Shown piece after piece: positions 4,914-28,770 of a stretch of DNA of 64,000 bases (positions within the stretch are counted from its first letter, which is position 1; each line of letters begins with the position of its first letter). The notes below the pieces were generated by a model. That model did not search any database. It saw only the letters and a program-made list of their open reading frames with translations, and was not told where the DNA came from. The position numbers were made by a program, and so were the translations under genes. This DNA is from Actinomycetes bacterium (GTDB lineage: Bacteria > Actinomycetota > Acidimicrobiia > Acidimicrobiales > JAMCPL01), in the NCBI GenBank assembly GCA_021841005.1, contig JAKBVZ010000035.1, forward strand, positions 1-64,000, written 5' to 3'.

Positions 4914-5146
4914 ACTACCTTCTACCTGAAGGCGAAAGCACCTTCGCCAAAAAACGATAGGAATGACCGGCAAATTACGCAGGAATAGTCACTATTGTCG
5001 CGGTTGCAGGTGCTTACACCCCCACGGAACGCGAAGAGCCCCTTATGTTAGGTATGCCACGCCGTGGAGGCAGCACACATGCCGATGTGGAGATCAGCCG
5101 ACTTGCCGATGTGCTGATTAGAGGATTAGGCGATTAGGCACATTTT

Positions 5147-5202
5147 CGATTAGTCGATTAGTCGATTAGTCGATTAGTCAATTAGTCAATTAGTCGATTA
5201 GT
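5147..5202. repeat. 7 x 8-bp tandem repeat, consensus CGATTAGT
   Basis: Units at 5147, 5155, 5163, 5171, 5179 (CAATTAGT), 5187 (CAATTAGT), 5195, with a degenerate flank. Ends 20 bp before the antitoxin start. Confidence 0.95.
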
Positions 5203-5222
5203 CGATTTGGCGAGGTGCTATA

Positions 5223-5504
5223 GTGGAATGCATGAGAACACTTACTCTGAACGAAGATGGGCGGATGACACTGCCTGCACCTATCCGTCACGCACTCGGC
5301 CTCGAGGGGGAGACCGAGATGGAGGTCGAGATCGACACCGATCATGATGCGATTATTCTTCGTCCAGCCGTTGTATTGCGGCGCGAAGACGCGTGGGCCT
5401 ACACGCCGGAGCACCGCGCACTGCTTGAACGTGCTCACGGCGACTCGCGAGCGGGCAGGGTCCGAAGTCTTTCCGAGGATGATCTTCGCTTGGCTGGTAC
5501 ATGA
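5223..5504 (+). CDS. AbrB/SpoVT (MazE-like) domain antitoxin
   Basis: LTLNEDGRMTLPAPIRHALGLEGETEMEVEI. GTG start with GAGG 7 nt upstream; an ATG at 5232 is an alternative. Confidence 0.7.
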   Translation: MECMRTLTLNEDGRMTLPAPIRHALGLEGETEMEVEIDTDHDAIILRPAVVLRREDAWAYTPEHRALLERAHGDSRAGRVRSLSEDDLRLAGT

Positions 5505-5507
5505 TCG

Positions 5508-5783
5508 GTGGCCGCAAAGTATCGGTCACTTGATTTTACAGAGACCTTTCTCGAGACCTTTGCTTCCATGAACTTCTCCAAGAATGAACGTTCGGCCGTA
5601 CTCAAGGCGCTAAGGCTGATCGACGAGAACGAACAGCATCCTTCGCTTCGAGTCCACAAGCTGGCGGGAGACAGGGAAGGCTCTTGGTCGGCATCAGCAA
5701 GTCGAAGCATCCGGCTGACTTTCGAGCGGCTGGATGGCGGTCGTAGGAGAATGCTTACCTGCTCGAAGCATTATGACCGGTGA
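5508..5783 (+). CDS. RelE/YafQ-like toxin
   Basis: 91 aa; HPSLRVHKLAGDREGSWSASASRSIRLTFERLDGG...KHYDR is RelE-superfamily-like. Starts 3 nt after the antitoxin stop. Confidence 0.65.
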   Translation: MAAKYRSLDFTETFLETFASMNFSKNERSAVLKALRLIDENEQHPSLRVHKLAGDREGSWSASASRSIRLTFERLDGGRRRMLTCSKHYDR

Positions 5784-5878
5784 CCAATCCCAGCCAGGCA
5801 GGAAACAATCTGGCTCCTGCGTTCGGTGTTCAACGATGTTCATGCTCCCATTTTCCCGGGGGAGCTAATACATTTGGC

Positions 5879-5908
5879 AAACTACGTAGTGCCAAACTAC
5901 GTAGTGCC
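5879..5908. repeat. 2 x 15-bp tandem repeat AAACTACGTAGTGCC, each carrying a 10-bp perfect palindrome ACTACGTAGT
   Basis: Palindromes at 5881-5890 and 5896-5905. Confidence 0.95.
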
Positions 5909-6058
5909 ATACTTTTGCAGATGAGTACCTTGACGGCTCAGGTGACCGGTATAGAAAACATTCCGAGCAGCGCAACTGCGTCTGTCGGCAACGTCACTGC
6001 AACTGGCGTTCGGAGCATCGCTTGGCCATAAAAGTACCGGAGTAGTACAATAAGTTCC

Positions 6059-9231: not shown

Positions 9232-11127
9232 ATGAGAGCGTTACTGTCGGTGTACGACAAGAGTGGCTTGGTGGAGCTGGCCGGAGGGCTGGTATCGCTT
9301 GGCTGGGATCTGGTGGCGAGTGGCGGTACCGCCAAGGCGCTTGCAGATGCAGGCATCATGCATAGCGATATAGCTTCGATGACCGGGTTCGGGTCGCTTC
9401 TTTCAGGCAGGGTGAAGACGCTGCACCCTGCAGTGCACGCAGGTATCCTTGCCGACAGGGACAATCCGGATCATATGAAAGATCTGGAGGAACAGGGGAT
9501 AGAACCGGTGGACTTGGTCGTGTGCAACCTCTACCCATTCGGCAGTGACCCTTCGATAGAGATGATCGACATTGGTGGACCTACCATGGTGCGGGCATCG
9601 GCCAAGAACTTTGCTCATGTCGGTATCATCGTGAGTCCACAGGACTACGGTCCTGTACTCGAGGAACTTGCCGGCGCCGGTAGGCTGTCGCTACAGACGC
9701 GCAGGAGATTGGCCCGGGCGGCATTTGCGCATACTGCAGCTTACGATGCTGCTATCGTGTCGTGGATCGATCAGGGGGGGCTGGAGAGCTCCGGCGCTGG
9801 TGGATGGGGTGGTCATAATGGCCATGATGCGGCGGAAGCGGCCGGCGCGGCTGGTGCAGGCGCTGGTGCAGGCGCTGGTGCAGGCGCTGGTGCAGGCGCT
9901 GAGGTAGGGACCGTTACTGCGATGGGTGCCGGCACGGTAGGGATTGGAAACCATGAGATCGCGGCAGGTCCGAGAAGCGAGCCAGGCGGGGTAAGCGAGT
10001 CACATCTGCCTCCCACTATCCACCTGAGCCTCGAGCTTGCCAGCAGACTTAAGTATGGGGAGAATCCCCACCAGCGCGGGGCGCGTTACCGTATTTACTC
10101 GAAACCAGGCTGGCTGGATACCACCGTGCAGCACGCAGGCAGGGAACTCTCTTATATCAATTTGTTCGATGCCGAGTCAGCCTGGTGGCTGGTCCACGAG
10201 CTGAAGAGCGCTGGAGCTTCTGGCGCAGGAAGTGGCAACGGCGGGGGTGTCGACGAGAGGAGTGGCATCGGTGGTGCTGGAAGCGGTAGCGGTGGGACAG
10301 AGGGTGGTTCCGCTACCGGGAACAGTAGTGGCGCCGGAACCGGGAGCGGTGACAGCAGGGGCGCCATTTCCACGGATACCGCGAGTATTGCGAGCGCCGT
10401 CATAGTCAAGCATGCCAATCCGTGCGGAGCAGCGCTTGGCAGTGATATGGCAGAGGCATACCGCCTTGCTCTCGAGTGTGACCCGATCTCGGCGTTCGGC
10501 GGGGTGGTCGCCCTTTCCGGTCATTGCGGGGTCGATGTGGCTGCAGCCATGGTGGACGCGCCACAGGCTGACGTGATCATTGCGTCCTCCTTTGATAGCC
10601 GGGCCATAGAGATGCTGGTGTCGAGGCGTAAGGCTACGAGGTTGCTGGAGTCGCCGCCTCCCGTTCGTTCACCCTTGGCTATACGTAGCCTGGGAGACGG
10701 CTTTCTTGTCCAGGATAATGACCTGGTTTCCCTGGATACTGAACGCTTCCAGGTTGTCACAGATATGGGGGTGCCTGATGGCGAATGGCCTGAAGTAAAG
10801 ATGGCCTGGATCGTCTGCGCCAGGACTACATCGAATGCGATTGTGGTGGTCAATCACGGCCAGGCGGTTGGTGTGGGAGCTGGCCAGCAGAGCAGGGTGG
10901 AAGCAGCAGAGATAGCAGTGAAGAAGGCGGGCGACAGGGCAGGGGGCGGGGTGGCTGCAAGTGATGCATTCTTTCCGTTCAGGGATGGTCTTGATGTGCT
11001 GGCCCGTGCCGGGGTCAGGGTTATTGTACAGCCGGGTGGATCGGTCAACGATGCGGCCATTGTCGAAGCGGCGAACGAACACGGTATAGCTATGGTGCTG
11101 ACCGGCGAGCGCCACTTCCGTCACTGA
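9232..11127 (+). CDS. purH: Bifunctional AICAR formyltransferase/IMP cyclohydrolase with two Gly/Ala/Ser-rich inserts
   Basis: NLYPF, RLKYGENPHQ, VKHANPCGAA, DAFFPFRDGLDVLA motifs. 631 aa, longer than typical PurH. Confidence 0.95.
   Translation: MRALLSVYDKSGLVELAGGLVSLGWDLVASGGTAKALADAGIMHSDIASMTGFGSLLSGRVKTLHPAVHAGILADRDNPDHMKDLEEQGIEPVDLVVCNLYPFGSDPSIEMIDIGGPTMVRASAKNFAHVGIIVSPQDYGPVLEELAGAGRLSLQTRRRLARAAFAHTAAYDAAIVSWIDQGGLESSGAGGWGGHNGHDAAEAAGAAGAGAGAGAGAGAGAGAEVGTVTAMGAGTVGIGNHEIAAGPRSEPGGVSESHLPPTIHLSLELASRLKYGENPHQRGARYRIYSKPGWLDTTVQHAGRELSYINLFDAESAWWLVHELKSAGASGAGSGNGGGVDERSGIGGAGSGSGGTEGGSATGNSSGAGTGSGDSRGAISTDTASIASAVIVKHANPCGAALGSDMAEAYRLALECDPISAFGGVVALSGHCGVDVAAAMVDAPQADVIIASSFDSRAIEMLVSRRKATRLLESPPPVRSPLAIRSLGDGFLVQDNDLVSLDTERFQVVTDMGVPDGEWPEVKMAWIVCARTTSNAIVVVNHGQAVGVGAGQQSRVEAAEIAVKKAGDRAGGGVAASDAFFPFRDGLDVLARAGVRVIVQPGGSVNDAAIVEAANEHGIAMVLTGERHFRH
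9853..9900. repeat. 4 x 12-bp in-frame repeat GGTGCAGGCGCT within purH
   Basis: Four consecutive exact units encoding GAGA. Confidence 0.97.
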
Positions 11128-11191: not shown

Positions 11192-12127
11192 ATGACTGCG
11201 AAGATACTTGATGGGGAATCCCTGGCCACCAAGATCCGCGAAGAGGTTGCGAACGAGGCGGCCAAGCTGCGCGCCCGGGGGATAATTCCGGGTCTCGGTA
11301 CCATACTGGTAGGGGACGATCCACCATCTGCACGATATGTGGCCATGAAACATGCTGATTGCGCAGAGGTGGGCATTGAGTCGATTCACGAGCACTTGCC
11401 TGCAGATATTACTCAGGATGACCTCATGTCTGCGGTCGAGCGTTTCAATTCCGACACTCGGGTGCATGCCTACCTGGTCCAGCTACCCCTTCCTGCCGGC
11501 CTTGACGAGGAAGAGGTGTTGCTTTCGGTGGATCCTTCAAAAGATGTGGATGGGCTGCATCCGGTGAATCTGGGGTTGCTGGTCATGGGCCATCCAAGGG
11601 TGTTGCCATGCACGCCCGCTGGGATACTGGAATTGCTCAGCGCCAATGGAATAGACCTAGCGGGCCGCCATGTGGTCGTGGTGGGTAGGGGGCTCACTAT
11701 CGGCAGGCCTCTGGCTCTACTTGCAGCATTGAAGCGTCCAGGATGCAACGCTGCCGTGACGGTGGTCCACACGGGGGTACCGGACATGGCCGAACATGTA
11801 CGCAGGGCCGATATTGTCATCGCGGCGGCCGGCCATGCCGGCCTGGTGACGCGGGATATGATCAAGCCCGGAGCGGTGGTGGTCGGCGCCGGAACCTCTT
11901 GGGAAGGCCGCAAGCTGCTTTCGGACGTAGATGACGCAGTGAGCGAGGTGGCTGGGTGGATCACTCCGAGGATAGGTGGAGTAGGTCCGATGACGAGGGC
12001 AATGCTGTTGCGCAATGCAATATCTGCGGCTATGCACACTGCGGCTATGCACACTGCGGCTATGCACACTGCGGCTATGCACACTGCGGCTATGCACACT
12101 GCCGTTGTGGATTCCAAGGCAACATAG
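11192..12127 (+). CDS. folD: Methylenetetrahydrofolate dehydrogenase/cyclohydrolase with repeat C-terminal tail
   Basis: VGDDPPSARYVAMKHADCAEVGI, VQLPLPAG, GRGLTIGRPLALL (variant of the usual GRSxxVGRP), GVGPMTRAMLLRN. Tail (AAMHT)x5. Confidence 0.93.
   Translation: MTAKILDGESLATKIREEVANEAAKLRARGIIPGLGTILVGDDPPSARYVAMKHADCAEVGIESIHEHLPADITQDDLMSAVERFNSDTRVHAYLVQLPLPAGLDEEEVLLSVDPSKDVDGLHPVNLGLLVMGHPRVLPCTPAGILELLSANGIDLAGRHVVVVGRGLTIGRPLALLAALKRPGCNAAVTVVHTGVPDMAEHVRRADIVIAAAGHAGLVTRDMIKPGAVVVGAGTSWEGRKLLSDVDDAVSEVAGWITPRIGGVGPMTRAMLLRNAISAAMHTAAMHTAAMHTAAMHTAAMHTAVVDSKAT
12026..12100. repeat. 5 x 15-bp in-frame repeat GCGGCTATGCACACT at the folD 3' end
   Basis: Five exact units. Confidence 0.97.
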
Positions 12128-27106: not shown

Positions 27107-28024
27107 ATGTCGATTAGTCTATCTTCTATGGCAACGATGAGTGGTATTGCGCGCCCTGTTTCGGTGGAGGGCGTACTTGATGTGCTTGATGAGGATCCTG
27201 CAACGCAGGTCTTGGCAGGTGGTACTGATTTTATGGTGGAAGTCAATTACGGCCACAGGAAGCCGCAGTCAATTGTTGCGCTTTCACGCGTGGCCGGAAT
27301 GCGCACCTGGCAGGTGGTAGAAGATCATCTGGTGATAGGGGCTGGGGTCACTTACAGCCAAGTCATGAAGGAGCAACTGGCTGATCTGTTGCCTGGTCTG
27401 GCCCAAGCGGCGCGAACGGTGGGATCACCGCAGATACGCAATGCCGGTACGATAGGCGGCAACCTCGGGACCGCCTCACCCGCAGGCGACAGCCTGCCGA
27501 TCCTGCTGGCGCTGGATGCGCTGGTCAATATACGTTCGAAGCATTCCAGCCGCAGCCTGCGAGTGGACGAGTACGTGATAGGACCTAAAAAGCACGCTCT
27601 CCAGCCTGGAGAAATAATTGTATCGGTACGGATACCCCTCAGCGATACTTCTCAGGAGTTTCTCAAGGTGGGTACGAGGAACGCCATGGTTATCTCTGTA
27701 GCCGGCCTGGCGCTTGTCGTCGACTGGAAATCGGGCCGGGTAGGTTGCGGTCTCGGATCTGTCGGACCTACACCGATTAGGGCCAGTGAAGCAGAGGCAT
27801 GGCTGGCCGGCGTCATCGACTGGGAGAATCGCCGCATCCCTGACAGAGATGGCTATGGGCAGGAATTCGGTCGGCTCGTTGCCCGTGCGGCCAGCCCGAT
27901 AGATGACCATCGCTCCAGTGCGGCATATCGCAGTTATGCTCTTAGCGTGTGCGGCAAGCGAGCATACGAGCGCATACGCCGTCAACAGCGGCAAGTTCTT
28001 CCAGGTATCGTGAATGGAGAATGA
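27107..28024 (+). CDS. Molybdenum hydroxylase FAD-binding subunit (CoxM/YgfM/XdhB type)
   Basis: LAGGTDFMVEVNYG, IRNAGTIGGNLGTASPAGDSLPILLALDA. Confidence 0.9.
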   Translation: MSISLSSMATMSGIARPVSVEGVLDVLDEDPATQVLAGGTDFMVEVNYGHRKPQSIVALSRVAGMRTWQVVEDHLVIGAGVTYSQVMKEQLADLLPGLAQAARTVGSPQIRNAGTIGGNLGTASPAGDSLPILLALDALVNIRSKHSSRSLRVDEYVIGPKKHALQPGEIIVSVRIPLSDTSQEFLKVGTRNAMVISVAGLALVVDWKSGRVGCGLGSVGPTPIRASEAEAWLAGVIDWENRRIPDRDGYGQEFGRLVARAASPIDDHRSSAAYRSYALSVCGKRAYERIRRQQRQVLPGIVNGE

Positions 28025-28770
28025 GTGTTATGGATGCAAGTGCCAATAAGGTCAATACGGTATTGCCGGAGAGCACGGTGAGGGTGGATCTAAGGATCAA
28101 TGGAAGGAACTACGTTCTTCCAGATATTTGGATAGGTGAGAACCTGCTCTATGTGTTGCGTGAACGCTTGGGTCTCCCTGGCTCGAAGAATGCTTGCGAA
28201 CAGGGGGAATGTGGCTCGTGTTCTGTGCTTGTCGATGGCATGCTTGTCTGTGCATGTCTGGTGCTGGCAGCAGATGCATCTGGGTGCGAGATAACAACCG
28301 TTGAGGGACTGGGCCGTACTCTTGCCGATCCTGCGGATTCGAGTGGGCAGGAGGAGGGGCAGACGCAGGGGCAGGGGCAGACGCAGGGGCAGGGGCAGGG
28401 GCAGACGCAGGAGGAGCGGCAGGGGCAGGGGCAGGGGGAGCAGGACCTTGCCGGGCCGACGATAATTGCATCGTCTATGCCGATGCCGCAATTGCAGGAT
28501 ATTAGCGTTACCGATGGCATGTCTTTCGAGGGAGCGCTATCCAGGATGCACCCCGTGCAACAGGCATTCGTCAACACTGGGGCGATACAGTGCGGGTTCT
28601 GCACTCCTGGGTTGGTGGTGGCGGTTGCTGACCTGCTGAGCCACAACCCCCATCCTTCGGCGTTGCAGGTTCGGGAGGCCATATCGGGTAACCTGTGCCG
28701 GTGCACCGGGTACGGTCGCATCTTTGCCGCTGTTCGCCGGGCCGAGGAACTACTTGCTGGAACTGCCTAG
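28021..28770 (+). CDS. Molybdenum hydroxylase [2Fe-2S] subunit (CoxS/XdhC-like small subunit)
   Basis: CEQGECGSCSVLVDGMLVCAC, CGFCTPGLV, NLCRCTGY. ATGA overlap with the preceding gene; Gln/Gly repeat insert at 28346-28440. Confidence 0.93.
   Translation: MSVMDASANKVNTVLPESTVRVDLRINGRNYVLPDIWIGENLLYVLRERLGLPGSKNACEQGECGSCSVLVDGMLVCACLVLAADASGCEITTVEGLGRTLADPADSSGQEEGQTQGQGQTQGQGQGQTQEERQGQGQGEQDLAGPTIIASSMPMPQLQDISVTDGMSFEGALSRMHPVQQAFVNTGAIQCGFCTPGLVVAVADLLSHNPHPSALQVREAISGNLCRCTGYGRIFAAVRRAEELLAGTA
28346..28440. repeat. GGGCAG/ACGCAG hexamer-type in-frame repeat in the [2Fe-2S] subunit
   Basis: Encodes GQEEGQTQGQGQTQGQGQGQTQEERQGQGQGEQ. Confidence 0.95.

Follow-up and report, generated by a model that had tools for sequence, protein, structure and literature searches.

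A probable expanded modular operator of 8-bp units upstream of a predicted AbrB-RelE toxin-antitoxin operon

Why should a row of near-identical 8-bp units stand directly in front of a toxin-antitoxin operon? In the window (the whole stretch of 64,000 nucleotides analysed), seven such units follow one another without interruption at positions 5147-5202, five copies of CGATTAGT and two of CAATTAGT, and then comes CGATTTGG; the two CAATTAGT copies are adjacent, at 5179-5194. The seven units, two of them with a G to A change, had been noticed in the original prediction and are indeed present, but they turned out to be the core of a longer array: degenerate units continue in phase upstream of the core back to 5080, and one further unit is found at 5208-5215, which makes 17 in all (Table 1). 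The strongest lag-8 self-match of the whole window is at 5097-5213, and a two-unit probe allowing up to three mismatches gave 8 matches when 0.18 were expected from shuffles. No second array of such 8-bp units was found in the 2.45 Mb of the same genome. The homogeneous core is probably the product of internal duplication. The outer units (5080-5143) differ from one another, which marks them as old, and not one indel disturbs their phase; that they kept both the phase and the family consensus in spite of their age suggests that they are under maintenance. The window is in general rich in short tandem arrays, with 50 rows in the tandem-repeat listing. Examples are 5.3 perfect copies of the 15-bp unit CTGCGGCTATGCACA at 12024-12102, where the 3′ end of a folD-like gene (11192-12127) contains them in frame and so encodes an AMHTA pentapeptide repeat; the 12-bp unit GCTGGTGCAGGC, present at 9850-9901 in 4.3 perfect copies that form an Ala/Gly-rich insertion in a purH-like gene (9232-11127); and about 15 imperfect GGGCAG hexamers at 28345-28437, within an ORF at 27949-28770.

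Table 1. Features of the array and of the operon downstream of it, in window coordinates
Feature	Position	Strand	Description	Basis or remark
Putative operator array	5080..5215	+	17 units of 8 bp in phase; the -10 fixes the register	orthologue-derived matrix
Array units 1-9, in order			TGCCGATG TGGAGATC AGCCGACT TGCCGATG TGCTGATT AGAGGATT AGGCGATT AGGCACAT TTTCGATT	
Array units 10-17, in order			AGTCGATT x3, AGTCAATT x2, AGTCGATT x2, TGGCGAGG	
Homogeneous core	5147..5202	+	7 x CGATTAGT/CAATTAGT	
-10-like hexamer TATAGT	5219..5224	+	predicted	position conserved in orthologues L011-L014, L018
Antitoxin gene	5232..5504	+	90 aa, AbrB/MazE-type DNA-binding domain	start by alignment
Toxin gene	5508..5783	+	91 aa, predicted RelE/YoeB fold	

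The array precedes a gene pair that, judging from domain matches and from the modelled toxin, is an AbrB-RelE type II toxin-antitoxin operon, with the antitoxin first and a predicted RelE-fold toxin directly downstream. The antitoxin passes the cut-offs narrowly (24.9 bits against 24.7 for PF04014, 29.7 against 28.3 for TIGR01439); among the Pfam families, MraZ is matched weakly too (E 0.067). It is the one PF04014 gene of its genome at the threshold used. Its predicted structure has a pLDDT of 61, and our conclusions are not based on that model. For the toxin, there are weak sequence matches to HigB and YoeB, and the model (pLDDT 77) superposes on the solved structures of YoeB, YafQ, RelJK and HigB with TM scores of about 0.6-0.73; neither NCBIfam nor PADLOC assigned it to a family. 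We rejected a MazEF identity, the toxin having a RelE and not a MazF fold. The AbrB-RelE combination was catalogued in 2009, when 27 such neighbourhoods were counted, with the same gene order of an AbrB-domain antitoxin followed by a RelE-fold toxin (PMC2701414). The operator was not described there, and the array of 8-bp boxes is thus the new part. The gene pair is conserved: relatives of the toxin, 71-79% identical, exist in five other genomes, and each time the antitoxin stands in front. No relatives of the operon were found in the viral contigs or plasmids searched. A MAG labelled Acidobacteria also has the operon (L015:2760-3273, toxin 71% identical); in its antitoxin some 13 AbrB-domain residues are missing, and its array is further from the start codon. 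This is a case either of transfer between phyla or of a binning error.

The position of the array relative to the promoter depends on the start codon. The -10-like hexamer lies 3 nt past the last array unit and 7 nt ahead of the ATG at 5232. The GTG at 5223, initially taken as the start of the antitoxin, overlaps this hexamer, and the alignment of the orthologues starts at the ATG, which is therefore the probable start codon. In the window and in five relatives, the hexamer ends 6-7 nt before the ATG. Because of this short distance, the transcript is probably leaderless, its -10 and start site both being predicted. It follows that the array, first described as lying in the leader, is more probably in the promoter, upstream of the start site, and that any -35 would be inside it; the accompanying suggestion of a promoter location agrees with a position upstream of the predicted -10 and over the -35 region. 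A sigma-70 promoter scan reported no promoter at the site because there is no -35 at 16-18 nt before the -10. Downstream of the toxin gene, at 5878-5913, a 15-bp unit, CAAACTACGTAGTGC, is repeated 2.4 times. This stretch, which has operator-like TGCCA/TGGCA boxes and ends in GTGCCATACT, is possibly a remnant promoter.

When the orthologous promoters are cut in 8-bp steps, going back from 3 nt before the -10, the same kind of unit appears in them: TGGCGACT TGCCAACT TGCCAACT TGGCGAAG in L012, TGATGATT GGACAATT CGCCTATT TGTCAAAG in L011, TGCCCCTT TGCCATAC TGTCAATA in L013 and CGCCGATT CGGCTAGT CGGCGAAG in L015, while the promoter of L018, whose antitoxin is 55% identical, ends in TGCCATTC TGGCAATA. 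The orthologues thus have about 3-4 recognizable units against 17 in the window, and the last unit is 3 nt from the -10 in both cases. This bears directly on the earlier idea of a phase-variable switch, in which slippage would alter the number of units and with it the promoter spacing, turning the operon on or off. Uniform 8-bp units can slip, and the two adjacent A-variant units hint at a past duplication; however, since the end of the array stays 3 nt before the -10 at any unit number and any -35 would lie within the array, added units would leave the -35/-10 spacing unaffected. A change in copy number would therefore alter the length of the operator rather than this spacing, and we consider such a switch very improbable.

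A weight matrix built from the six orthologous promoters only, with the register fixed to the -10, was applied to the window. In the -10 register the 17 units score +3.4 on average, whereas the seven alternative registers give -4 to -11; the signal falls off sharply at 5080, and 16 of the 17 units score above zero. The uniform core is by itself weak evidence, because 2.3% of random 8-mers match or exceed the score of the core unit, a moderate match. It is the eight diverse outer units that carry the argument, since none of the 63,690 other positions of the window reaches their mean score. In leave-one-out tests, the same register was the best one in every orthologue.

When about 790 genomes from the class and the phylum were searched with the antitoxin, distant members came up, many with RelE-like partners. 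In 42 promoters of homologues (window excluded), the self-match at lag 8 reaches 0.379, compared with 0.264 elsewhere in these loci (z +11.6), with further signals at lag 16 (z +8.9) and lag 24 (z +3.3), these z-scores, like the p-value below, not being exact probabilities because the homologues share ancestry. All the other lags are near or below background in these promoters and there is no lag-10 signal; some of the homologues are without the lag-8 signal. As a control we used the PF04014 matches in 40 genomes of the order, minus the window and the orthologues already collected. The 55 control promoters of other AbrB genes, by eye mostly with PIN-domain partners, average 0.262 at lag 8, against 0.390 for 23 promoters of the RelE-partnered AbrB type (p = 4e-9), a comparison to be read knowing that some promoters had been viewed by eye before the homologues were split at 30 bits, the 55 controls having been fetched afterwards; no comparable effect is seen at other lags. 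The three members of the RelE-partnered type in the 40-genome set have lag-8 scores of 0.47, 0.51 and 0.64, and the mazE promoter of E. coli K-12 is devoid of the 8-bp period (lag-8 score 0.21). As far as promoter comparison can tell, the 8-bp period, its register to the -10 and the type of box (see below) accompany the RelE-partnered AbrB antitoxins, and other AbrB genes lack them. Upstream of the start of a distant antitoxin of the same type, in L019, we observed another rather uniform 8-bp array (GTACAGTT x2, GGACAGTT, GGACAGTA); as it is independent of the present one, local expansion of units has happened more than once.

The unit consists of a 5-bp near-palindromic box and a 3-bp linker, the box being TGNCA in close relatives and TCNGA in distant ones. 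TGNCA was seen 13 times in the close group (2.7 expected), and TCNGA 18, 9 and 9 times in the distant groups (3.6, 3.3 and 2.1 expected). Two copies of one box at a distance of 8 bp occur 6 times in the close group (0.15 expected) and 10 times in the class-level group (0.09 expected); in the control promoters nothing comparable is seen. In the window, the core AGTC(G/A)ATT keeps the G-N-C and the next A, the outer T of TGNCA being lost. Thus, in the promoters compared, the box appears to change with the antitoxin subfamily while the 8-bp period stays. Most TGNCA promoters belong to antitoxins with the loop GR and most TCNGA promoters to antitoxins with the loop GQ, a trend confounded with ancestry. 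As a strict rule (GR = TGNCA, GQ = TCNGA) we rejected it, in view of L019 (GQ, with ACAGT boxes) and of L027 and L056 (GR, without TGNCA). We searched six genomes for tandem pairs of TGNCRAWN units but claim no second regulon, because the matches appear intragenic or unrelated; the incomplete genome G001 has 6 such pairs, unexplained, against 0 for the control pattern.

These data also bear on the possibility that the array is bound by another host factor or is an A/T-rich upstream element that acts on RNA polymerase to increase promoter activity. In favour of this, the core unit has a high A/T content for its genome and stands shortly before the -10. However, across many genera the period and the box go together with one antitoxin-toxin family and are not shared by the other AbrB promoters of the order; a common host factor would leave unexplained why the box varies from one antitoxin subfamily to another; and a pitch of 8 bp does not fit the helical turn of DNA. 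An explanation of this sort is, we think, unlikely.

Rows of short boxes read by dimers are already known in bacteria, and none of them is an 8-bp operator of an AbrB-type antitoxin. The omega repressor of pSM19035 is likewise a dimer reading a row of short repeats in a toxin-antitoxin promoter, but it is a ribbon-helix-helix protein, is not the antitoxin, and its units, NATCACN, are 7 bp long (PMC3920265); the 8-bp period and the AbrB domain led us to reject an omega-type heptad operator. MraZ of Mollicutes also binds direct repeats in its own promoter, but it is a cell-division regulator and not an antitoxin, and its repeats (AAAGTGKN3 x3) have a 10-bp period (PMC5282649); since the lag-10 signal is absent, this type was rejected too. 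RptR, the repressor of a defence island, binds as a dimer to a short palindrome in tandem direct repeats over the promoter, but it is another protein, not an AbrB-type antitoxin, and the repeats are three imperfect ones of 9 bp (PMC12255303). Finally, E. coli mazEF likewise has an AbrB/MazE-type antitoxin and palindromic elements overlapping the promoter, the alternating palindrome (PMC4803016), but MazF is not RelE-fold, and the mazE promoter, which we compared by period only, has no 8-bp period. We found no published account of an 8-bp AbrB-type antitoxin operator in the literature searched, mostly without subscription papers, and an earlier description may exist.

Taken with the rule that type II antitoxins repress their own synthesis through an operator overlapping the promoter (PMC4803016), the evidence from sequence comparison makes us fairly confident that the array is an expanded modular operator of the AbrB-RelE operon, with the antitoxin as its presumed binder. 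The original prediction of a multimerized AbrB-type operator is in this respect well supported by period, register and box type. In the mechanism that we infer, in all its parts (binder, cooperativity, repression, influence of the number of units), dimers of the AbrB-domain antitoxin, with or without the toxin, would bind successive units cooperatively; the row of antitoxins would cover the -35 region up to the -10, block RNA polymerase and so repress its own leaderless promoter, and the toxin may modulate this repression as in other type II systems (PMC4803016). Each 8-bp step turns neighbouring units by about 274 degrees and brings back the same face every four units, so that a filament winding round the DNA is plausible. 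Internal duplication would have raised the number of units from about 3-4 to 17, making repression tighter and steeper and allowing the operator to hold more antitoxin.

A different view of the unit number deserves attention: a short operator would be conserved, only the units nearest the -10 would work, and most of the 17 would be effectless slippage products, the genome having a tendency to tandem duplication. About 3-4 units are enough in the orthologues, the window contains many other perfect short tandem arrays, such as the five 15-bp copies in the folD-like gene, and RptR represses with two of its three repeats (PMC12255303). The maintenance suggested by the old outer units, which are diverse and have nevertheless kept phase and consensus, argues against it, and we regard such neutral expansion as possible, though somewhat doubtful. 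One may tentatively, and with somewhat less than even confidence, extend the case to an operator code for a whole branch of AbrB-type antitoxins, in which palindromic boxes of 5 bp recur strictly every 8 bp and each holds one dimer, the dimers winding round the DNA; the box would be set by the DNA-binding loop (mostly GR/TGNCA and GQ/TCNGA), and the number of units, 17 here, would serve as an evolvable knob of repression strength.

DNA recognition by AbrB-type proteins is poorly understood. A conserved, phased box that varies with the antitoxin would offer natural protein-site pairs from which the rule of recognition could be worked out, and the 17-unit array may serve as a natural experiment relating unit number in the operator to the response of a toxin-antitoxin switch.
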